Program-made: the position numbers and the translations under genes
Assembly (NCBI RefSeq): GCF_900129745.1
Contig: NZ_FQWS01000001.1
Location: 868,001 to 932,000, forward strand
Direction: 5' to 3'
From: Winogradskyella jejuensis
Lineage (GTDB): Bacteria > Bacteroidota > Bacteroidia > Flavobacteriales > Flavobacteriaceae
DNA length: 64,000 nt
Shown here: one piece after another, positions 50,682 through 62,261 of the stretch
Layout of the letters: the number at the start of each line of letters is the position of its first letter
How positions within the stretch are numbered: the first letter of the stretch is position 1
Notes under the pieces: model-generated
Seen by the model: the letters and a program-made list of their open reading frames with translations, nothing else
What the model was told of the DNA's origin: nothing
Databases searched by the model: none

Positions 50682-51497
50682 TTATTGCTTAATCAACTTA
50701 ATTGTTCTATTAGCGTTACCAGAAACAAGTTGTAAAAAATAAATTCCAGAATTTAACTCAGATATATCAATAGAATTATCTGTAACATCTGCGCTAATCG
50801 TTTTAACTAAAGCGCCATTAATATTATAAATTTGGGCATTATCAATTGAAATTCCAGCTGTTTTAATATTAAATGTGTCTACTATTGGATTAGGAAATAC
50901 AGAGGTTTTAGAAAGAATAAAATCATCAGCACTTAAAACAAGGTTAAAATTGGTGTCTCCAACCAAAGCTCCATAACGGTCTATATTACCTGATCCATCT
51001 TGTGAGTCCATTACAATAACATTCCCTAAACTTAGACTAAAGTCATTAATAAGTGTTGTTATTAGAGGGTCAGTCGTTTCTACAAACTCTATATCTCCAC
51101 CTGTTGGTGAGCTCGTAACCTCAAAGCTTACTAAACCAAATCGTTCTGTCCCGTGATTAAAGATAGTTTGCCCTACATCACTTACTAGTGATATGACATC
51201 TTTTGTACCATCTCCAACACCAGCTCCTTGCAATACAGGTCCAGTAAGGATATCCACATCTGTTTCCCAGCCAGTTCCAGTTAAAGATGTAATGTTTCCT
51301 ATAGTTTCTCCTGTAGCTATGGTAAATAAAACAACGCCAGAGGCAAAATCTGCACCTGTAGCTGCTGCACTTGGCACAGCAAATACAGTATATAAATTAG
51401 AGTTTGTAGCATCACGCTCTACCTCAAAGTCGTATGTGGTTTGAGCATAGGTAAGCAATGTTAACATTGCAAATAATAGTGTAGTAATTTTTTTCAT
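50682..51497 (-). CDS. Secreted T9SS cargo protein
   Basis: The 271-residue protein has a signal peptide ending TYAQ, a beta-rich middle with cohesin-like features (ASGVVLFTIATGETIGNITSL, ERFGLVSFEVTSSPTGGDI), and a T9SS type A sorting domain (TSVFPNPIVDTFNIK, NSGIYFLQLVSGNANRTIK, LIKQ). The cohesin-like middle and a dockerin-like end in the adjacent 1452-residue protein could pair; this is an inference. It lies 34 bp downstream of that gene on the same strand and is likely cotranscribed. Confidence 0.83.
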   Translation of the reverse strand: MKKITTLLFAMLTLLTYAQTTYDFEVERDATNSNLYTVFAVPSAAATGADFASGVVLFTIATGETIGNITSLTGTGWETDVDILTGPVLQGAGVGDGTKDVISLVSDVGQTIFNHGTERFGLVSFEVTSSPTGGDIEFVETTDPLITTLINDFSLSLGNVIVMDSQDGSGNIDRYGALVGDTNFNLVLSADDFILSKTSVFPNPIVDTFNIKTAGISIDNAQIYNINGALVKTISADVTDNSIDISELNSGIYFLQLVSGNANRTIKLIKQ

Positions 51498-51531: not shown

Positions 51532-54500
51532 TTAGTTTTGAGGTATTTGCGAAGTGATGTTAGAAAACAATGAGTTAAATACATTACCTGGGTTACCAAG
51601 AATATTGTCTCTTATAAATAATGGTTCACTGTTTCCTGCAGAAAACTTTAGCTCGCCATCCATATTTATATCTTCATTTAAATAGCCTTGAGCTGCAAAA
51701 AAGAGAGAATTAAAAATATTATCAGGGTTGTTTAACACAGCGTCTCTAATATCTGTTGGCTCTGCATTAGCTCCTGAGAATCTCACAACACCATCTGAAT
51801 TGGCATCTCCTGCCCACATGCCTAGTGTATTTTCTGGCATTCCAAAATTGGTTTGCGCATTTGTTCCTAAGGTTAGAGTTGCTGTATTAGTAAAATCTAA
51901 GTTAAGCCTATTTCCATCTAGAAGTAATAAAGAATTTGAAACTATTCCTAAGTGATTCCTATGCTTTATGGCCACAAAATAATTACCATTTGGAGCAGTA
52001 AACTGTAATATTCCTAAACCATTTAAGTCAACAATATCACCATCGCGTTGTAATAATGCAGAGCGCGCTTCAATAATATTTGTTAGGTCAAAAGCATCTC
52101 GTAATTCTACAAATACCCAATCAACAATGGCATTTTCGCCTTCAACATTAAATACTGATGCGTTAACAGCGAGAGCATCACTATATGGTGACGTTGTTGG
52201 TATAAGACCAGCTACACGCAAATCGTCTCGCATTAATGTTTCTTCGCCAGTATTTGGATTTAGATACGCACCTTGCAAAAAGACTTTAGGTTCTAAAATA
52301 GTAGTACCTTGTTCTATAATCGATTTAAATCCTGTCCAGCCATTATCTAAATAGGCTTGCATTGTTCCTTGCGGAATGAATAAATTGATATTATTACGTG
52401 GATTAATAGTCCCATTATTTATGGTTGGTGGATTTACACTTTCTGAAATAATTTCCGTTAATCCATTATCAAAAAAAGCTTCACCTCCAATGGACGTTAT
52501 ATTTACAGGAATGTTTGTACTTCTCAACGAACCATTGTCCCTAAATGCACGACCTTCTAGTGTGGTAAGTGTACTAGGCAACTGTAACGTTTGTACACCT
52601 CGATTTCTAAATGCTTCATTCCCGATAGTAGTAATGGTAAAATCAACACCATTTTTGCTTATTAATTCTGGAAATACAAAATCACCGTTAGGTACCGTTC
52701 CATTTTGGCCAACTGCGGATAATGTATTTGGTGCTAAGGTTAAAATTTCATATCTAATTGCATTTACTGTAAATGTATTTCCAACCGCAAGTCCATTTCC
52801 ATTAATGGTAAAGAATCCTGTCCAACCCGCATTTTCATAATCAATTTCATTACCAGAAGGTACTGTTAACGCTATGTTTTCACGTTCTCCAAACGAATTA
52901 CTTTCAATAGTTGCTGGTGCTGTTCCTAAAGCTTCTACCTGTTCTAAAGTTGCTAAAGAAAATGAATTTGAACCAATGGTAGTTATACTAGCAGGAAGTG
53001 TTACACTTGTAATATCTGTATTTTGAAACGCATTATTTTCAATAGCAGTTATAGTAAAAGTTGTACCTGCTTCCGTAACTATTTCAGGAATACTAATATT
53101 TTGTTCTGTAGTTACTCTGCTTAAAACTTTTACTTCATTTGGACTCACACTAGTTACTTCATATCGAAAGTCTCCCGCTGTAAATTGGGCGCCTATTTGA
53201 AAGTCTCCATTTACACTTCCAAAACCTGTCCAACCTGCCGCAACATAATCGTCAATCACAGATTGTTGATTGGGTATTATAGTTAGATTAATAGTACTAC
53301 GCGTTCCAAAACTTGAAGCAGTAATTGCAGCAGGAGTTTCGCTATCTGCAATTATATTGGCTAACGGATTACTAGAAAAAGCATCATTTTCAATACTTGT
53401 AATATTAGAAGGAATTGTAATTGTAGTCAATAAATTAGCATTAAACGTATTTGCTGCTATTGTGGTAATGTTTGCAGGAATAGTAACGCTGGTTAATTTA
53501 TTATTTCGAAAAGAAAACCCTTGTAATTCAATTAAACTCTCAGGAAAACTAATAGATTCTATTTCATTGTTACGAAACACATCATTGCGTATAGTTTGAA
53601 GGTTTGCTGGAAGCGTTACACTTATCAAATCGTTATCACGAAAGGTTTGTGGTCTAAGTTCAGTGATACCATCCGGAATGACAATACTTGTCAACTGATT
53701 GTTTCTGAATGCAGCTGACCCTAAAGTTGTTAAACTTGAAGGCAAGGTTATGTTTACAAGTTGATTATTAAGAAATGCATCGGTATCAATGGTTTCTACA
53801 GTATTAGGAAATATAACGTTTGTAAGTCTATTATCACGAAAGGCAGCTCTCCCAATTGTAATAACTCCAGTTGGAATTACCAAACTACCTATTTGATTAT
53901 TTAAAAATGCTGCTTCATCAATGATATCAATAGAATTTGGAAGTGATAGGCTGGATATTTGATTATTTGAAAAAGCGCCATTTTCAATGGCCACTGTTCC
54001 TAAAGGAATACTCAAATTGGTTAATTGGTTTCCTCTAAAAGCATTTACGCCAATAGTTTCTGGACCAGATGTAAATGTAACTTGGGTTAAAGCATTATTT
54101 AAAAATGCGTCTTCTCCAATTGTAGTGACTGATGCTGGAAACGTAATTGCTGTAAGATTGTTGAGTTCAAATGCTTCTGCATCGATAACTTCTATATTTT
54201 GAGGAAATACAACACTATTGATACCCTTATTTCTAAAAGCTCGAAATCCAACAGCTGTCACTGTAAATGAAATACCATTTTTAGTGGTTGTTGACGGTAA
54301 TACTAAATCAGTAATACCGTTTCCGCCACTTCTTAATTCTACCGTATTTGGGTTAACGCCATTAATTCTATAGTTAAAACCATCAACAGAAAAATCAGAA
54401 CCTATAGAAGGTATTCCATTGACTGAAAAGAAACCTGTCCAACCGCCATTTTCATATATTGTTTCAGATCCGTTTGGAACTGTCAGCGAAATATTTCCTC

Positions 54501-55890
54501 GATTTGTTATACTATTATCCGTCTCTAAAGTGGGAGCAGTTACTGCTTGTGAAATAATTTCTGTAAGCGGATTATCTCGGAACGCTTCATTTTCAATTGT
54601 AGCAACAGAAGCTGGAAGTGTAATTGTAGTTAAATTGTTACTCTCAAAGGCTTCATTACCAATCAAATCAGCATTTTGCGGCAATACTACACTATTGAGA
54701 TTCCTACCTCTAAAAGCACGAAATCCAATGGCGTTTACTGTAAATGAAATACCATTTTTAGTGGTTGTTGACGGTAATACTAAATCAGTAATACCGTTTC
54801 CGCCACTTCTTAATTCTACCGTATTTGGGTTAACGCCATTAATTCTATAGTTAAAACCATCAACAGAAAAATCAGAACCTATAGAAGGTATTCCATTGAC
54901 TGAAAAGAAACCTGTCCAACCGCTATTTTCATATACTGTTTCTGAACCATTGGGAACCGTTAAATTAATATTGCCACGATTTGTAAAACTATTTGTTTGA
55001 ATAGTTGGTGCAGCAACGGCATCTAAAATGACTTCTATGAGCGAGTTATTACTATTAAACGCTTCATTATCAATAGTAATTAGAGAAGCAGGAAGTGTAA
55101 CTGTTGTTAGATTATTGTTTTCAAACGCTTCGTTTTTAATCACTTCTATCGTATTTGAAAAGGAAACACTATTAATTCCTGCATTTCTGAAAGCACGACT
55201 TCCAATCGCCGTGACAGTATATGTATCTCCTAATTGTGGTTCTACAACTGATGCTGGTATAACTACATCAACAATTCCATTTAAACGACCGGCAACTTCA
55301 ACTTCTAGCGGGTTTTGTGAAGTCACTCTATACCGTAAATCACCCACATCAAAAGTTCCGCCAACGGGAATTTCTCCATTAACGGTTCTAAAACCTGTCC
55401 AACCGCCACTTATATACGTAGCTTCAAATCCATCAGGAACTATTAAATCTACATTAGCGCGTGTACCAAATGAACTGTTACTAATATTTGCAGGCACAGT
55501 TCCTTCAGCAATAACTTCATTTAATCCGCTATTCAAAAAAGCTTCACCGTTTACATTAGTAACACTCGCTGGTAGAGTAACTGAGGTAAGATTGCCATTA
55601 TCTCTAAATCCACGAAAATTAATAATGCGTAAGGTGTTGGGTAAAATTACACTCGTCACACCTTTGTTTCTAAATGCCTGACTTCCTACTTCAGTAACCG
55701 TATAGCTATCTGTACCATCGGTGACGGTACTCGGTATTGTTAATGGGTTTGTAACTGTTCCGCCAGTAACCTCAACTTCGTTAGGGTTGGTTGAAATGAC
55801 ATTGTAGTTAAGTCCGTTATCAGTAAAGGTTTGCGAATAACTTAGTGTTGTAAAAACAACGGTAAGTAATGTGAGCAATTTTGTTTTCAT
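51532..55890 (-). CDS. Giant BspA-type leucine-rich-repeat secreted protein
   Basis: The 1452-residue protein has a signal peptide (TLSYSQ) and many BspA-like (LRR_5) repeats of the form TSVILPNTLRII...AFRNN, in six cassettes each closed by a GWTGF module (GGWTGFRTVNG, SGWTGFFSVNG, GGWTGFFSVNG, AGWTGFGSVNG, AGWTGFFTING, NGWTGFKSIIE). Each module leads into a YRVTS..P-type strand region. The C-terminal 90 residues hold two dockerin-like loops (DANSDGVVRF, DINMDGELKF) and no recognisable T9SS type A domain. BspA relatives bind host or matrix proteins. Two cassettes share an identical 185-bp DNA segment. Confidence 0.9.
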   Translation of the reverse strand: MKTKLLTLLTVVFTTLSYSQTFTDNGLNYNVISTNPNEVEVTGGTVTNPLTIPSTVTDGTDSYTVTEVGSQAFRNKGVTSVILPNTLRIINFRGFRDNGNLTSVTLPASVTNVNGEAFLNSGLNEVIAEGTVPANISNSSFGTRANVDLIVPDGFEATYISGGWTGFRTVNGEIPVGGTFDVGDLRYRVTSQNPLEVEVAGRLNGIVDVVIPASVVEPQLGDTYTVTAIGSRAFRNAGINSVSFSNTIEVIKNEAFENNNLTTVTLPASLITIDNEAFNSNNSLIEVILDAVAAPTIQTNSFTNRGNINLTVPNGSETVYENSGWTGFFSVNGIPSIGSDFSVDGFNYRINGVNPNTVELRSGGNGITDLVLPSTTTKNGISFTVNAIGFRAFRGRNLNSVVLPQNADLIGNEAFESNNLTTITLPASVATIENEAFRDNPLTEIISQAVTAPTLETDNSITNRGNISLTVPNGSETIYENGGWTGFFSVNGIPSIGSDFSVDGFNYRINGVNPNTVELRSGGNGITDLVLPSTTTKNGISFTVTAVGFRAFRNKGINSVVFPQNIEVIDAEAFELNNLTAITFPASVTTIGEDAFLNNALTQVTFTSGPETIGVNAFRGNQLTNLSIPLGTVAIENGAFSNNQISSLSLPNSIDIIDEAAFLNNQIGSLVIPTGVITIGRAAFRDNRLTNVIFPNTVETIDTDAFLNNQLVNITLPSSLTTLGSAAFRNNQLTSIVIPDGITELRPQTFRDNDLISVTLPANLQTIRNDVFRNNEIESISFPESLIELQGFSFRNNKLTSVTIPANITTIAANTFNANLLTTITIPSNITSIENDAFSSNPLANIIADSETPAAITASSFGTRSTINLTIIPNQQSVIDDYVAAGWTGFGSVNGDFQIGAQFTAGDFRYEVTSVSPNEVKVLSRVTTEQNISIPEIVTEAGTTFTITAIENNAFQNTDITSVTLPASITTIGSNSFSLATLEQVEALGTAPATIESNSFGERENIALTVPSGNEIDYENAGWTGFFTINGNGLAVGNTFTVNAIRYEILTLAPNTLSAVGQNGTVPNGDFVFPELISKNGVDFTITTIGNEAFRNRGVQTLQLPSTLTTLEGRAFRDNGSLRSTNIPVNITSIGGEAFFDNGLTEIISESVNPPTINNGTINPRNNINLFIPQGTMQAYLDNGWTGFKSIIEQGTTILEPKVFLQGAYLNPNTGEETLMRDDLRVAGLIPTTSPYSDALAVNASVFNVEGENAIVDWVFVELRDAFDLTNIIEARSALLQRDGDIVDLNGLGILQFTAPNGNYFVAIKHRNHLGIVSNSLLLLDGNRLNLDFTNTATLTLGTNAQTNFGMPENTLGMWAGDANSDGVVRFSGANAEPTDIRDAVLNNPDNIFNSLFFAAQGYLNEDINMDGELKFSAGNSEPLFIRDNILGNPGNVFNSLFSNITSQIPQN
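54261..54922. repeat. Identical 185-bp direct repeat inside the BspA-like gene
   Basis: Positions 54261-54445 and 54738-54922 are base-for-base the same, 477 bp apart (159 codons). The repeat spans the end of one LRR cassette and the start of the next. Identity at DNA level points to a recent duplication or gene conversion, and to a risk of length variation by recombination or assembly collapse. Confidence 0.88.
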
Positions 55891-55948: not shown

Positions 55949-56683
55949 CTAGTCTAAAAAACTAAAATCTAAGAACTGAATACATATTTCATTGAATAAT
56001 TCTTCTGCTTCGGGTTGTCTTATTAAGGCTTCTAGTAATCCGTTAAACGCTTGCGCTTTAGCAGCTTCAATAGTTTCATCGCTAAAAATAGCTGGGTCGT
56101 AATCTCCTAAATATTTTGTTGCTGCAGTTTTTAGACTCTCAAAAGCTTCGGGTTGTCTTGCTATACCTATAAATAAATCAATCATGGCTATGCCTCTTGC
56201 ATTGCCGTTAATAATAGCATTATCACTCATGTGTTCTGGGTCAAAAGGCCCAACAAACTGCGTTGCTGCGGTATCAAAAGTCTCAAAAGCTTCGGGTTGC
56301 CTTGATATACCTTGAAACAACTCCGCAACAGCCTGTCCTCGAACTATAATTGTATTATCAGTAAAAGGCAATAACTCTGTATAATCAGTATAAATTGTTT
56401 CTGTAAGTGCTATTAAAGTTTCAGCAGATTCTGGTTGCCTTGTGATATTTTCTAATAATGTAATAGCGACACTCATCTTAATAGCGTTGATATCTGAGTC
56501 TGCACTATTATCTAATAAATTTGAAATGGAATCTAAAGAAGTTGAAAACTGATTTTCAATCTCGTTTTGATTCTCTGATAAGTCATTGATTTGATTTTGC
56601 AAATTGTTTATATCGTCTTCGTAAGTACAACTTGTTAATACTAAGAGTGTAATTCCTGTTAGTAATAGAATAATTTTTTTCAT
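55949..56683 (-). CDS. Repeat lipoprotein with four RQPE units
   Basis: From the ATG at 56683 the protein is 244 residues with a lipobox (LVLTSC, Cys19) and a short coiled-coil (INNLQNQINDLSENQNEIEN). Four repeats of 46-48 residues follow, each marked by RQPE (at about 82, 128, 176 and 222) within a helical unit such as ISRQPEAFETFDTAATQF. The unit pattern is helix plus loop. No family was recognised. It sits 59 bp upstream of the BspA-like gene on the same strand, and downstream of a regulator gene and a candidate AraC-type operator. Confidence 0.82.
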   Translation of the reverse strand: MKKIILLLTGITLLVLTSCTYEDDINNLQNQINDLSENQNEIENQFSTSLDSISNLLDNSADSDINAIKMSVAITLLENITRQPESAETLIALTETIYTDYTELLPFTDNTIIVRGQAVAELFQGISRQPEAFETFDTAATQFVGPFDPEHMSDNAIINGNARGIAMIDLFIGIARQPEAFESLKTAATKYLGDYDPAIFSDETIEAAKAQAFNGLLEALIRQPEAEELFNEICIQFLDFSFLD

Positions 56684-56820
56684 GATTATGTAGGTTTCTG
56701 TTTTATGATGCAATACTATTTCTATACCTGTTTTTATAAAAAATAAACTGCCTCAGAGGGAAAAATTGGGTTTAAAAGTGAAAAAAATGACTTGAAAAAT
56801 TCTTCTAATTCAATTTAAAA

Positions 56821-56828
56821 CAAAGGTA
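56821..56828 (-). promoter_or_regulatory. Promoter -7 box of the lipoprotein-BspA unit
   Basis: On the minus strand this reads TACCTTTG, matching TAnnTTTG. No clear TTTG -33 box is seen at the right distance, which suits activator-dependent transcription. The leader to 56683 would be about 130 nt. Confidence 0.55.
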
Positions 56829-56847
56829 AATTGAGGTCTCTCTTTGT

Positions 56848-56884
56848 ACTGTAACAATCCCGAACTAGACTGTTACAATAGCGA
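56848..56884 (-). promoter_or_regulatory. Candidate AraC-type operator: 16-bp direct repeats 21 bp apart
   Basis: ACTGTAACAATCCCGA at 56848-56863 and ACTGTTACAATAGCGA at 56869-56884 match in 13 of 16 bases, start to start 21 bp. The promoter-proximal copy ends 20 bp from the -7 box, so it replaces the -33 region. AraC-family proteins bind such half-sites in tandem about two helix turns apart. A TGTAACA/TGTTACA inverted repeat is contained in the pair. Confidence 0.6.
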
Positions 56885-56909
56885 CATAAAGTGTAGTAAA
56901 ATTGGGTGG

Positions 56910-58565
56910 TTATTCGGTAATGTCTGATGGGCTCACACCAAACTCTTTCTTGAAACATTTAGAGAAATAGGAAGGACTTGTAAACCCATATTGAAACGCA
57001 ACTTCTGATATGGTGAAAGTTCTAGTCAGCAAAGCTGCTTTTGCTTTATTAAGTCGAGTAGTAGTAATAATCTGACCAGGCGTTTTACCTGTGAGTTCTT
57101 TTAGTTTACGCTGTAGTTGACGCTCGCTAATACCAACTTTTCGGCTTAGCTCATCAACTCCAAAATTGCTATTTTCTAAATTCTGCTCAATAATTACCAA
57201 TACATCTTCTAAAAACGAATCGTATTGAACGACTTGAACTGTATGTAGATTTCCTTGAATTTTTGCAACGTTACTTTTAGATACACTATAGACACTTTGC
57301 AAGTCATTATTTTTGTTAACCAAAACTGCACCTTCTTTTTTAAACTGAAAGGCAGAACCAGACAATAAATGTTTTATGGTTTGTATCGCATATATTCCGT
57401 TACGCTTAGATTGCGTTTTTAAATTATTGATAATGTATTTATCGTTTTCTGATACGGATTCTTTAAGCGACAATAACCCTTGTCTCATAAAAATGCAAAA
57501 TGATGCTGTAATGCCTAATTGCTTTAAGTGCTGCTCAAAATCTATTGCACAATTTGTAGCTCTTCCGGGCAATCTAAATGCAGCTACAAAGCTTTTTCTA
57601 CTGGAGACGATTGTCTTTCCGTCATATTGTTCTATAAATTGTTTAACTAAATTGGGTTTTAAATTAGTTATTACTTGCTCAGAAACACATCCGCAAACAA
57701 GAGTTATTAAGCCTTTTTCTTGAGGTTTTTGGGGACTAATTTCGTCTATGAAATTTTTCATCTCGTTTAATACCTCATCTGTATTTCCTGCCCAAAATAA
57801 ATGGTCGCTACCGCTAAATTCTACAAATTTTGCATCTTTTAAACGCTCTGCAACAAAGCGTCCTTCTTCGATTTTTACATCAATATCGTTGGTACGTTGC
57901 ATTAATAATGTAGGTACTTTAATGTGTTTTAGTACATCAATGATATTAACTTCAGTATTCATTTTGGTGAGCTTAATGGCAGCCGATGGACTTGCACCAG
58001 ACCTAAAATAGTTGGCTAGCCAATCCATAAAAATTGGGTCATTAGCTTTAGACGGTACAAGACTTTGCAAGTATAGTTTACCACTGCCCCAATTGTTTTC
58101 TATCATATCGTATACCTTTTGACGCTCATCGTCTGTTGGAGCCCAAGGATAATCTTCAGAAAAACGACGTTTTGCAAAGATGCCAAATGCCATTAGTGCT
58201 AATACTCTGTTAGGATACGTGGCACTAAATAATGCGGAAACACTTCCACCTTCGGAATGCCCAAACAAAACGGCTTCACTAGAATTTACGGCATCCATAA
58301 CAGCTTTGATATCTTCCATGCGCTCCTCAAGCGTAGAAAGCTCAACGACACGATCAGATAATCCAGTTCCTCGTTTATCAAAAAGGATAACTCTAGCGAC
58401 TTTGCCTAATTCATGAAAAAAATGAACCAATTCTGGGCAAGACCACATCCAATCGATATTAGATATCCAACCTGGTATGTAAACTAAGTCAATATTACCA
58501 TTACCAAATACTTGATAAGCAATACTAATGTTTCCACTTTTGGTGTATTGAATTTGGGGTTTCAT
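56910..58565 (-). CDS. Alpha/beta-hydrolase, degenerate class III cyclase and AraC fusion regulator
   Basis: From the ATG at 58565 the product is 551 residues. Residues 1-275 are an alpha/beta hydrolase with GHSEGG (Ser104 as nucleophile), LMQRTNDIDV and SGSDHLFWAG (His255). Residues 283-415 align by eye with the class III nucleotidyl cyclases that usually follow this hydrolase: SFVAAFRLPGRATNCAID parallels the GFLATFDGPARAI motif, and IKHLLSGSAFQFKKEG parallels VxDLVxGSGxxFxDxG. The metal-binding Asp pair is absent, so it is probably inactive. Residues 455-551 are an AraC DNA-binding domain (VGISERQLQRKLKELTG, VAFQYGFTSPSYFSKCFKK). It likely controls the downstream surface genes. Confidence 0.85.
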   Translation of the reverse strand: MKPQIQYTKSGNISIAYQVFGNGNIDLVYIPGWISNIDWMWSCPELVHFFHELGKVARVILFDKRGTGLSDRVVELSTLEERMEDIKAVMDAVNSSEAVLFGHSEGGSVSALFSATYPNRVLALMAFGIFAKRRFSEDYPWAPTDDERQKVYDMIENNWGSGKLYLQSLVPSKANDPIFMDWLANYFRSGASPSAAIKLTKMNTEVNIIDVLKHIKVPTLLMQRTNDIDVKIEEGRFVAERLKDAKFVEFSGSDHLFWAGNTDEVLNEMKNFIDEISPQKPQEKGLITLVCGCVSEQVITNLKPNLVKQFIEQYDGKTIVSSRKSFVAAFRLPGRATNCAIDFEQHLKQLGITASFCIFMRQGLLSLKESVSENDKYIINNLKTQSKRNGIYAIQTIKHLLSGSAFQFKKEGAVLVNKNNDLQSVYSVSKSNVAKIQGNLHTVQVVQYDSFLEDVLVIIEQNLENSNFGVDELSRKVGISERQLQRKLKELTGKTPGQIITTTRLNKAKAALLTRTFTISEVAFQYGFTSPSYFSKCFKKEFGVSPSDITE

Positions 58566-58721
58566 TTCTTGATATATGACATTTATCCAAAGATGAAACA
58601 CTATAACAAATCCGACAATAAATTAGGGGTAGCAACAGGGTATCACAACAAGAAAAGCTTTATAAATAAAATGATTAAAGCAAACTGTGAGTGAAAAAAA
58701 TACGACACCAAAAGATGAAAA

Positions 58722-60356
58722 CTAATTTTTTTTTGTTTCTAAAAATGCAATAATATCTGCTTTAGAATCGAGATTTAGTTTTTTACGAATACGGTAACGT
58801 GACGATTTTACGGCTGCAACTGTAGTATTAGTTAATTTTGAAATTTCAGTAGCGTTTAAGTCTAACTTCATAAGGCTTAATAGCTGTTTTTCGTTGGCGT
58901 TAAGCTGGGAAAATTCACTGTCTAAAAGTACTTTAAAGTCTATGCTTGTTTTGTCTAGATAAGATTGAAGTGTAGATGTTGTTTTTTGAGAGGATTGTTC
59001 TGAGAGTAAAGATGCTCTTATAGATTTAAGTGCTTGTTCACGTTCGGTTTTGTCATTGATAGCAATAACATTTTTGACCTCATCAATAGTTTGCTTTATA
59101 ACCTCTTCTTTAAGTGAGTTTTCTATGACTACTTTCTTGAGTTCAGTTTCACGGTTTGCCAAGGCTAAATCTGCATTTAATTTTTCGGCTTCTTTAAGGC
59201 TTAGTTTTTGCTTGGTGTTCTTTCTTATAAAAAAGATGATTAAGGCACCTGACAGTAATGCAACAACTAATAAAACTAAGTAAAGTTGTTTTTTTGAAGC
59301 TTCATTTTGAAGCTTCAAGTCTGCTATTTCTCTTTCTTTATTAAATTTATAATTGAGGTCTAGTTTTGTTATGCGCTTATGCTCCTCTAAATTATTTACT
59401 GAATCTGAATATATCTTATAAATAGCTTGTGCGTTGTAAGCCTCTTTATATCTTCCTAAATTATGTAAACAGTCTGCCTTAAAATTATAAGCAAGTTCTA
59501 ATTGCCTTTTTTTTCCTATAGATTCATAAAAATAAATACAAGAATCTACAGCTTTTAATGCATTGTTCCAATCTTCTAATAAGCCATATGTATGTGCTAA
59601 GTTGCCGTAACGCACACCCATATCGTTAAAATCTTTTGGATTTGTTAGCTTTAAAGTTCTTTTATTTATTTCTAATACTTTCTCGTATTTATTTTGTGCT
59701 TTATATACGCTAGAAAGATTTGACTCTACAATGAGAGCTCTTTGTTTAGTGGTATCTATTTTTTTTGCTTTATTAAACGCTATTACTGCAGAATCTAGTT
59801 CCTTTTTTGCGAAATAAATATGACCTAATTTTATATAGGAATATGCATATTGGTCTGGAGTACTATTGTATTTCTGTATTTTTAGCGCTTTTCTTATATA
59901 TTTTTCTGAAGCCAGTAGATCTTCCAGCTTTAAGTAAATACTGCTCAAACCTGTGTACGCAATTCCTAAACCAATTGAATCATTGATTTTTATGTAATGT
60001 TTTACTGTCTGAAATTGATAATCTAACGCATTAGCCCAATTTTCTTTAGTAGTTTCTGCATTTGCTAAGCTCCTTAAAACTGTACCCTTAGTTTTTTTAT
60101 AGAATGAAGAGTTTTTATCAATATTTTTAATGTCTTCTTCAACATCTTTAACAATAGCAATTGCTTCATCCATATTAAAAAGAGCTACTCTTCCTGATAA
60201 ATCTAGTTTAAGATTAATCCTTAAAGTATCTGAAGTTGCTTCTTCTATTTGTAACTTAAGTGCATCTGCTATACTGTCTTTTACTTGAGCTTGCACAGTT
60301 AATAAACAAACACAGCAGGTTATTAAGCTAAATATCTCAAAACTAGAGTACCTCAT
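58722..60356 (-). CDS. TPR sensor with LuxR-type DNA-binding domain
   Basis: The 544-residue protein has an N-terminal signal or membrane segment, about five TPR units (GIAYTGLSSIYLKLEDLLASEK, YAYSYIKLGHIYFAKKELDSA, RYGNLAHTYGLLEDWNNALKA), then a membrane helix (YLVLLVVALLSGALIIFF), a coiled coil (LKEAEKLNADLALANRETELK) and a LuxR-type end (LLSLMKLDLNATEISKLTNTTVAAVKSSRYRIRKKL). It lacks a kinase domain. The TPR part would be periplasmic and the helix-turn-helix in the cytosol. It ends the operon of the lipoprotein-YceI-DUF5777 genes and may regulate it. Confidence 0.9.
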   Translation of the reverse strand: MRYSSFEIFSLITCCVCLLTVQAQVKDSIADALKLQIEEATSDTLRINLKLDLSGRVALFNMDEAIAIVKDVEEDIKNIDKNSSFYKKTKGTVLRSLANAETTKENWANALDYQFQTVKHYIKINDSIGLGIAYTGLSSIYLKLEDLLASEKYIRKALKIQKYNSTPDQYAYSYIKLGHIYFAKKELDSAVIAFNKAKKIDTTKQRALIVESNLSSVYKAQNKYEKVLEINKRTLKLTNPKDFNDMGVRYGNLAHTYGLLEDWNNALKAVDSCIYFYESIGKKRQLELAYNFKADCLHNLGRYKEAYNAQAIYKIYSDSVNNLEEHKRITKLDLNYKFNKEREIADLKLQNEASKKQLYLVLLVVALLSGALIIFFIRKNTKQKLSLKEAEKLNADLALANRETELKKVVIENSLKEEVIKQTIDEVKNVIAINDKTEREQALKSIRASLLSEQSSQKTTSTLQSYLDKTSIDFKVLLDSEFSQLNANEKQLLSLMKLDLNATEISKLTNTTVAAVKSSRYRIRKKLNLDSKADIIAFLETKKN

Positions 60357-60381: not shown

Positions 60382-61287
60382 TTATTTTTTCTTCAACTTA
60401 TTACTTAAGTGAAACACATAAGTGGCATTAAACCCAAAATGAAGATTTGGGTCTTTAAAGTTGAAGTTATTTCGGGTTTGGGTGATAAAAGTATCTTCAA
60501 CCATGTTACGTGTATTAGTTAGCATGAGTTGAATTAAAATATCCCCAACTTCCCAATTTACCCCAATTGCAAACGGGTCGTACGTATTAAAAGAATCAAT
60601 AGGATTGAGTGTTCTGTAATACTCAGAAACCAGTTCTAAGTGCGGTCCTAATTTGTATCGTGCTCCAAAACCTAGAGCAAAAAAGTTGTTGTTGTCCGCA
60701 TTAGATAATCCTAAACTTTTATGTACAAACGTAGGCGCTACTTGAAATGAGAACTTTGGTGAAAATCTTCGAGATACTAAAAGTTGGGTTGTATACCCTA
60801 ATCTATCTGAGAAATCATCGGCAACTAATGGATTTGGTATAGAACTACTATTGTAACTCGCGCCTTGAAATAGGGTAATATTAAACGGGTTGTTCTTCTC
60901 GCCTTTATTTTGGGATACTAAATTGTATTTTAAGTACCCATCAAAAAGACCATCGAAAGTAGTACCACCAACCCCAAAAGATAAGCGGTCTGTAATACCG
61001 TATTCTAAAGCTATGCGTGTCGTGACTTTATCTGCAACAAAACTCTCTGAGCGGTCTCCAGGGAAATTCCAAAAGCGCGTTGCTGTAAACAATTCTAAAA
61101 CACCTTGGTTTCTAACTTCGGTAGAATGTCCAAAGGCTACACGCGTCATCTTAAATGCAGGAGAAACATAATCTGAAGTTTTGTTTTGCTCTCTATCTAA
61201 AATATCTTGTAAATCGTCTTGAGCAGTAGCTATTTGAATACTCCCAAGAACTAAAAGACATCCGACTAAAATGGTTTTAATTTTCAT
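60382..61287 (-). CDS. DUF5777-family beta-barrel protein
   Basis: From the ATG at 61287 (MKIKTILVGCLL) the protein is 301 residues; 61302 is an alternative. A signal peptide ends at IATAQ. The mature part is barrel-like and has DUF5777 features: SPAFKMTRVAFGHSTEV, GVLELFTATRFW, LEYGITDRLSFGVGG, and a final FGFNATYVFHL. Members are often coded next to YceI and cytochrome c genes. It overlaps the upstream YceI gene by 11 bp and precedes the TPR-LuxR gene by 25 bp. Confidence 0.9.
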   Translation of the reverse strand: MKIKTILVGCLLVLGSIQIATAQDDLQDILDREQNKTSDYVSPAFKMTRVAFGHSTEVRNQGVLELFTATRFWNFPGDRSESFVADKVTTRIALEYGITDRLSFGVGGTTFDGLFDGYLKYNLVSQNKGEKNNPFNITLFQGASYNSSSIPNPLVADDFSDRLGYTTQLLVSRRFSPKFSFQVAPTFVHKSLGLSNADNNNFFALGFGARYKLGPHLELVSEYYRTLNPIDSFNTYDPFAIGVNWEVGDILIQLMLTNTRNMVEDTFITQTRNNFNFKDPNLHFGFNATYVFHLSNKLKKK

Positions 61288-61822
61288 AAGGCTGATATTC
61301 AAATTTAAAATTAACTTCTATACTTTTTGCAATATTACCAGCTAACAATGGCGGTATATTAATGTTATAATCTTTTACAAAAGTCTCAAACGTACCAGAC
61401 AACATGTAACCTCCATTATTGTTTTCGATTTTAGTTTTTATTTCGATGTCTTTGGTAACGCCTCGCATGGTAAAAGCACCTTTAATTATTTTTACCTGTG
61501 TGCCTTGTTGTTGAGCATCAAAACCTTCAATTCTGCCATTAAAAGTGGCTTTAGGATAGATATCGGTTTCTATGTAACTTTCGTTAAAATGCTCTCGCAT
61601 CAGTGCTTTTTCAAAAACAAAAGCATTCATTAGCATATCTACGGCTATTGTTCCTTCTTCTAAGTCTATTATACTTAAAACTTGATTGTTTTCTGCTTTT
61701 ATATTTTCTACAGAAGTATAGGAAAAGAAAGAGACTTGCCCTTGCCTGGCAATTACTTTTTTTGAGTTAGAAGTAATGCCTAAACCAAATAAAAGGAGGA
61801 CTATTAAAGTAAGTTTATTCAT
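61277..61822 (-). CDS. YceI-family protein
   Basis: The 181-residue protein has a signal peptide (LIVLLLFGLGITS) and the YceI layout: VSFFSYTSVENIKAENNQVLSI, MNAFVFEKALMREHFNESYIETDIYPKATFNGRI and GAFTMRGVTKDIEIKTKI. It should be a lipocalin-like barrel binding an isoprenoid chain or similar lipid. It overlaps the OB-fold gene upstream by 8 bp and the DUF5777 gene downstream by 11 bp, showing a tight operon. It is not closely like the other YceI at 19395. Confidence 0.92.
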   Translation of the reverse strand: MNKLTLIVLLLFGLGITSNSKKVIARQGQVSFFSYTSVENIKAENNQVLSIIDLEEGTIAVDMLMNAFVFEKALMREHFNESYIETDIYPKATFNGRIEGFDAQQQGTQVKIIKGAFTMRGVTKDIEIKTKIENNNGGYMLSGTFETFVKDYNINIPPLLAGNIAKSIEVNFKFEYQPYEN

Positions 61823-62261
61823 TGTTTTTTGGTTGGGGAATTATACAATTTAGTAGAATAATATCATTTAATGAGCCTTTGAGGATGCCTTTAACATCAA
61901 TTGCATCTCCAATACTTAATTTTTGAAGAATTTGTTTTTGATTGTCTTGCATGTCGCATATGACCAATCTATCATTACTACGTCCTTTCAAGATAATTGT
62001 AGAACGCTCATTTAAGTAATTAATGTCTTTTATTTCGCCTTTAACCAAAACGACGCTTTCTATTAAGTTTGAATTTTCAAAATTAAAACTTTCATCATTA
62101 ATCTGGTCTACAGCAAATTGTTTTACATCTGAAGATTCTGAAACAATTTTATCTGAGTTTTCTGTACAGCTAGTGATTCCTATAAGTAAGAACAAAAAAA
62201 GTATTGCCAATATTTTTGCTGGCTTATATCTTATTTTAAACTTTTTAAATATCAATTGCAT
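61815..62261 (-). CDS. OB-fold lipoprotein (tRNA_anti-like)
   Basis: The 148-residue protein has a lipobox (LLIGITSC) and an OB-type core: VLVKGEIKDINYLNERSTIILKGRSNDRLVICDM and LSIGDAIDVKGILKGSLNDIILLNCII. Small OB-fold proteins of this tRNA_anti-like kind are found in Bacteroidota beside YceI and DUF5777 genes. The ligand is unknown. It is 92 bp downstream of the lipoprotein gene, with a terminator between, but a -7 box at 62275-62268 would start transcription right at its ATG. Confidence 0.82.
   Translation of the reverse strand: MQLIFKKFKIRYKPAKILAILFLFLLIGITSCTENSDKIVSESSDVKQFAVDQINDESFNFENSNLIESVVLVKGEIKDINYLNERSTIILKGRSNDRLVICDMQDNQKQILQKLSIGDAIDVKGILKGSLNDIILLNCIIPQPKNNE

Follow-up and report, generated by a model that had tools for sequence, protein, structure and literature searches.

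RsbQ and KAI2/D14 are stand-alone proteins and pass their signal on to partners, and LipJ is Rv1900c, a bifunctional lipase/adenylate cyclase whose cyclase domain is the one in structure 1YBT. In the ara system of Escherichia coli, binding at araI2 recruits RNA polymerase, and AraC both represses and activates, by DNA looping (PMC4760080, in excerpt). In Flavobacterium psychrophilum, the sigma-A -7 consensus is TAnnTTTG, placed at -12 to -5 (PMC9723704, in excerpt). Here we compare with these systems a pair of tandem repeats in the window (the whole 64,000-nt stretch of DNA that was analysed), which the first-pass annotation had read as an AraC activator site next to the promoter of a lipoprotein gene. 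We find strong reason to regard the repeats as the tandem operator of the adjoining regulator, which would activate the lipoprotein-BspA unit. Very probably the site is an AraC-type activator site, its conservation, spacing and promoter distance being well above chance. The activator-site reading is thus supported in silico by the conserved motif, its spacing and its distance to the promoter.

Repeats and promoter elements in the window

The genes concerned all lie on the minus strand, in the order TPR-HTH protein, regulator, repeats, lipoprotein and BspA-type protein. The two 16-bp repeats, ACTGTAACAATCCCGA (56848-56863) and ACTGTTACAATAGCGA (56869-56884), are identical at 13 of 16 bases with a start-to-start spacing of 21, so that the initial description of them is borne out by the window sequence. 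Their functional units are best read as minus-strand 17-mers (56886-56870 and 56865-56849). The distal half-site, TGTCGCTATTGTAACAG (56870-56886, PWM score 17.6), is kept in relatives and lies 23 bp from the stop codon of the regulator; the proximal half-site, GTTCGGGATTGTTACAG (56849-56865, minus strand, PWM score 15.5), is 21 bp from the distal one and occupies the expected place of a -33 element. The -7 promoter box TACCTTTG (TAnnTTTG; 56821-56828, minus strand) begins 20 bp beyond the proximal 17-mer. If the box is placed at -12 to -5, as in the excerpt of PMC9723704, transcription is predicted to start near 56816, which would put the proximal half-site at roughly -33 to -49 and its distal partner at roughly -54 to -70.

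Taken without comparative data, the repeat is modest evidence and only suggestive. When 56684-56909 was shuffled by mononucleotides, 3 of 1000 shuffles produced an equally good repeat with a spacing of exactly 21 bp, and 26 of 1000 did so when every spacing from 17 to 30 was allowed. The 64-kb window itself contains 14 repeats of this quality at spacings 17-30, and in four of them the spacing is 21. A 21-spaced pair at 50780-50817 sits within a coding region and was taken as chance. A repeat expected in 3 to 26 per 1000 shuffles could itself be a chance match, or it could be an RNA hairpin or terminator element, as the two units are 85% complementary over 13 nt and were detected as an inverted repeat (I10). 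Yet relatives conserve TGTTAyAG as a direct repeat, and this sequence is no palindrome. The hairpin or terminator reading was ruled out, as no terminator-like site was found and no Rfam match reached the gathering score, and the chance reading was ruled out by the conserved spacing and promoter distance given below; we consider the probability of either negligible. The repeat is taken as real because it is conserved in relatives, its frequency alone being insufficient.

A single half-site, TGTCGGATTTGTTATAG (58601-58617, minus strand, PWM score 23.5), lies 35 bp upstream of the regulator ATG. In the own genome no half-site is stronger, and it is the sole match there with one mismatch to the consensus; a -7 box is absent 20-21 bp beyond it. 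It may possibly serve autoregulation, either in self-repression or as a loop partner. The same half-site bears on another reading, whereby the regulator binds the operator but represses from it, or switches between repression and activation as AraC does. AraC offers a precedent for both modes by looping (PMC4760080, in excerpt), and this strong site, about 1.7 kb off, could be the partner in such a loop. Against this, the conserved proximal site stands clear of the start, on the upstream side of the -7 box, which is where an activator contacts polymerase, and we therefore hold repression or switching to be unlikely. We infer that the regulator binds the operator and activates rather than represses.

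Two weaker half-sites, also 21 bp apart, were seen beyond the window in the own genome (L163:2883-2920, minus strand), 60 nt upstream of a cytochrome-c-like lipoprotein gene, where the -7 box matches at only 4/6 positions. Likely counterparts of this gene stand behind operators in L004, L005, L034 and L036. The pair is a lead to a possible further operator of the own genome.

Recurrence of the motif beside related regulators

A total of 64 full-length or near-full-length regulator loci was used, from which nine near-copies were removed to give 55 non-redundant loci. The fragments L007, L008, L085, L090 and L091 were excluded from this count, the partial and diverged L006 was retained, and 40 HTH-only loci served as controls. 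A matrix seeded from only the two copies in the window converged on 70 sites, with the half-site consensus TGTCGGAAwTGTTAyAG (17 bp, minus strand in the window). CG is invariant at motif positions 4-5, which is partly an effect of score-based selection. On the gene strand, 28 of the 55 regulators have a motif score of at least 14 in their 3′ flank; on the opposite strand none does (0/55). Upstream of the regulators this score was reached in 0/55 on the gene strand and 2/55 on the other strand, these two being L004, which has three divergent sites in tandem, and L081, which has a single one. No such score was found in the control flanks of other AraC-type genes (0/40) or in shuffled sequences (0/1100). 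The training loci of the matrix overlap in part with the test loci, and the count was still 28/55 after omitting each locus's own sites from the matrix. The conserved sites span several families of Bacteroidota.

The spacing between successive half-sites (n=40) was 21 bp in 23 cases, 20 bp in three, 22 bp in three and 19 bp in one; it was 41 bp in six cases, and 40, 43, 54 and 203 bp in one case each. Half-sites of about 17 bp directly repeated two helical turns apart, as expected of AraC-type sites, are thus found in 23 of the 40 cases as well as in the window. For the distance to the promoter box, 30 loci with sites at a lower threshold of 9 were considered. An exact TAnnTTTG starts 20 bp (7 loci) or 21 bp (11 loci) past the last site in 18 of the 30, whereas it occurs elsewhere within 0-59 bp of the last site in one case. 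The binomial chance of this positioning is about 2e-38 if the loci are treated as unrelated, which in fact they are not. In these 18 of 30 loci the proximal half-site accordingly stands at the -35/-33 region with a fixed distance from the -10/-7 box. Lack of conservation in relatives had been named at the outset as what would refute the AraC-site reading; on comparison, the oriented motif, the 21-bp spacing and the promoter distance recur beside orthologous regulators. The claim that the nearer repeat takes the -33 place of a TAnnTTTG promoter likewise holds, the 20-21-bp distance being found again in relatives.

We then define a composite operator as two half-sites 20-22 or 40-43 bp apart followed by a -7 box (at least 5/6 positions) 20-21 bp on. 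In 1.7 Mb (strands summed) 54 composites were found as against 0 in the reversed sequences, the 54 including near-copies (e.g. L003 and L041) and one place counted twice (overlapping L067 and L072). The 17 HTH-only loci among those scanned gave no composite. Of the 54, 26 fall outside the 300-nt training flanks, some of them 3-5 kb upstream of regulators in Aquimarina. At least one composite is present in the searched locus sequence of 33 of the 55 representative loci; it was not found in the searched sequence of the other 22, some of these sequences being short. Operators are present in Flavobacteriaceae, Saprospiraceae, Cyclobacteriaceae and Flammeovirgaceae, and their presence is unclustered on the regulator tree (17 changes against a shuffled mean of 17.4). 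Since the operator is scattered over the tree, the motif looks ancient. Two other observations concern the loci themselves. The 330-nt 3′ flanks are identical between L003, of the same genus as the window, and L041 (Winogradskyella psychrotolerans), which makes Winogradskyella the probable genus of the window. Loci L047 and L048, from MAGs labelled Rickettsiales and Thalassovita, are placed among Bacteroidota in the tree, and these labels may be binning errors.

The distribution of composites also allows us to weigh whether the operator is instead the site of a different regulator encoded in the cluster, for instance the TPR-HTH protein (58722-60356, minus strand), whose HTH was recognised by eye and in which Pfam finds TPR repeats only. 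A homologue of it is present in the searched sequence of 20 of the 54 other representative loci, 15 of them with the operator, so that it is somewhat commoner beside operators (15/32) than in loci where none was found (5/22). But 17 loci have the operator with no TPR-HTH homologue in the locus sequence searched, and the operator geometry is that of AraC-type sites. The TPR-HTH protein as binder is for these reasons disfavoured despite its slightly greater frequency, and we consider it most improbable that the operator belongs to it or to another such regulator. The regulator with the AraC domain is taken as the binder in what follows.

Genes behind the operator and sites elsewhere in genomes

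The first gene behind the operator encodes the lipoprotein (55949-56683, minus strand), in which repeated RQPEA segments can be seen by eye. No relatives of it were found in the 67 other genomes of the genus (1/68, which is the own genome) or in the other searched loci, and for this reason it looks like a local insertion between the operator and the BspA gene. The gene for the BspA-type leucine-rich-repeat protein (LRR_5; 51532-55890, minus strand) follows 58 nt beyond the lipoprotein gene. No terminator-like site was found between the two, and they are probably co-transcribed.

Within the searched set, BspA homologues turned up in a further 19 sequences, variously placed. They lie downstream behind an operator in L003/L041, L046, L081 and L092, downstream with no composite in L035 and L093, and upstream of the regulator in Kordia; in L004 the BspA gene is divergent and has its own sites. 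In two further genomes (G245 and G418), a zero-mismatch site to the degenerate pattern stands immediately upstream of a BspA homologue that is 66-68% identical to that of the window over its first 445-473 residues. In these the operator before BspA is 7.8 and 10.8 kb away from the regulator, and under the stricter composite scan only the G418 site (L150) of the pair passes. Both genomes are called Kordia-like because their second matches are the 3′ flanks of the Kordia loci L034 and L036. Operators also precede genes for cytochrome-c-like lipoproteins (with CxxCH recognised by eye and Pfam scores under the cut-off), as well as for an amidase and for Lipoprotein_15, beta/gamma-crystallin and Pvc16_N proteins. 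As judged from these gene orders, the recurrent putative target is a BspA-type gene, besides genes for other envelope proteins.

Two neighbouring sets of YceI-like, tRNA_anti-like and DUF5777-like genes were also seen in the own genome, at 60382-62261 and L163:196-2822, the families being assigned by Pfam for the window set and by eye for the L163 set. In Kordia and others, homologues of YceI and DUF5777 are likewise found downstream of the regulator. These sets are possible further target operons.

On the scale of whole genomes, a pattern with a 20-bp spacer and at most 2 mismatches matched G000, G027 and G056 among the 68 genomes of the genus. Five more match at 3 mismatches, which makes 8/68 as against 2/68 for the reversed pattern. 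The full-length regulator is present in 4 of the 68 genomes (G000, G013, G027 and G056), and the operator of G013 has a 21-bp spacer that is poorly matchable by the 20-bp-spacer pattern. In two pattern searches over the family (397 genomes, 2 mismatches), the genomes matched numbered 3 against 4 for the reversed pattern, and 5 against 1. As the 2-mismatch counts are little higher than their reversed controls, weak genome-wide matches mean little, and a regulon drawn from such patterns was rejected as near noise at 2 and 3 mismatches, few of the matches having been followed.

Among the matches that were followed, G175, G245 and G418 have convincing sites together with a full-length regulator, as does G056; in G175 the regulator is on a different contig from the site. 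The genomes with poorer matches (G441, G083, G287 and G163) have no full-length regulator, and 20 arbitrary genomes of the family have 0, one of them carrying the hydrolase part only. This association is not a blind one, in that G175 alone had been named in writing, on account of its site, ahead of the regulator search; the others were sorted by eye, and the regulator of G056 was already known before the comparison. G441 has a 1-mismatch site match with no regulator in the genome. L154 is a lone 1-mismatch operator-like match in a regulator-less genome, near a transposase-like reading frame (by eye).

The regulator and its likeness to known systems

The regulator (56910-58565, minus strand; 551 aa) combines an alpha/beta hydrolase, a class III cyclase-like and an AraC DNA-binding domain. 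Its start is most likely ATG 58565 rather than GTG 58601, because the longer reading is aligned with most homologues only from its residue 13-15 onwards. The gene next to the repeats had been annotated simply as AraC-type; the AraC domain is indeed present, but in a LipJ-like hydrolase/cyclase-like/AraC fusion and not in a plain AraC. HTH_18 and HTH_AraC, which mark the two-helix-turn-helix DNA-binding domain (about 100 residues) of the AraC/XylS family, were found in all 51 members of alignment A1 (which omits L003, L005, L006 and L034). The NCBIfam LipJ model covers residues 3-413 (E 9.1e-59) in the order hydrolase, class III cyclase, at a score of 199.3 bits where the NCBI curated cut-off is 800. 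By profile the middle domain matches 1ybt (E 3.1e-13). At the positions that align with the metal-binding aspartates of the cyclase domain in 1ybt, Asp is present in 0/51 (293) and 4/51 (324) members. In the hydrolase part, S104 (GxSxG), D227 and D229, and H255 are invariant in 51/51, as in alpha/beta serine hydrolases, so that the Ser-Asp-His triad is kept. The AlphaFold2 model has a mean pLDDT of 84. All 50 Foldseek matches listed are to the hydrolase part, RsbQ and KAI2/D14 being among ordinary esterases, and none of the 50 is a cyclase; the cyclase-like domain hence rests on sequence profiles. No kinase or receiver domain was found by Pfam. In our reading the regulator has a presumed sensor of the hydrolase type, carried on a dead cyclase domain, that would drive the AraC domain.

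In the mechanism that we propose, each 17-bp half-site would be bound by one AraC-type DNA-binding domain, with the recognition helices lying in TGTCGG and TGTTAyAG. Two subunits would then sit adjacent, two helical turns apart, the proximal one at the place of the -33 element. At the TAnnTTTG box this subunit may contact sigma-A RNA polymerase and so turn on lipoprotein-BspA transcription, while the N-terminal LipJ-like hydrolase presumably senses, acting via the cyclase-like domain. A wider proposal, which we advance tentatively and to which we give less than even weight, is that a catalytically competent hydrolase sensor has a small ester or lactone as its ligand or substrate, that the dead cyclase domain couples this to DNA binding, and that surface adhesin and envelope genes are thereby turned on in marine Bacteroidota. 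The regulator would then be a one-protein bacterial counterpart of the karrikin/strigolactone receptors.

Among the open-licence PMC matches listed, which were partly swamped by 'arachidonic', there was no description of the regulator architecture, the motif or control of BspA by such a regulator. The new elements are the motif, its connection with a sensor fusion of the LipJ-like kind, and BspA as a recurrent target. The regulator class gains a putative DNA-binding motif, an operator layout and a candidate target set. Since a hydrolase-type sensor is tied to BspA-type proteins, a search for the signal becomes directly testable.

With regard to the sensor part, the regulator shares with LipJ the order of hydrolase and cyclase-like domains (by profile matches), and differs from it in that an AraC DNA-binding domain is fused, the metal Asp is mostly lost and the score is far below the cut-off. 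With RsbQ and KAI2/D14 it shares the hydrolase fold and the retained catalytic triad, a likeness common to ordinary esterases, which rank equally high; in contrast to them, the hydrolase is here fused to a DNA-binding domain. Among solved structures, the best profile match of the regulator is 12aw (E 2.9e-24), the AraC-type domain of a hybrid two-component (HTCS) regulator of Bacteroidota; kinase and receiver domains were not found here by Pfam. For the operator, the 72 letters of the E. coli araBAD promoter were matched in 5345 of the 5426 genomes of E. coli, with 3574 records reaching at least 99%; this promoter stands before araB and carries araI1 and araI2 as 17-bp half-sites 4 bp apart, the proximal one 20 bp from the -10/-7 element. 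Unlike araBAD, the operator described here has a different motif, the Bacteroidota -7 box TAnnTTTG and a regulator with an unrelated sensor, and some relatives carry up to four or five half-sites. Both nevertheless have direct tandem half-sites in the same 17-4-17-20 layout, which bears out the likeness to the ara spacing of about 21 bp seen at first reading, and the araBAD layout is thus retained at TAnnTTTG promoters.
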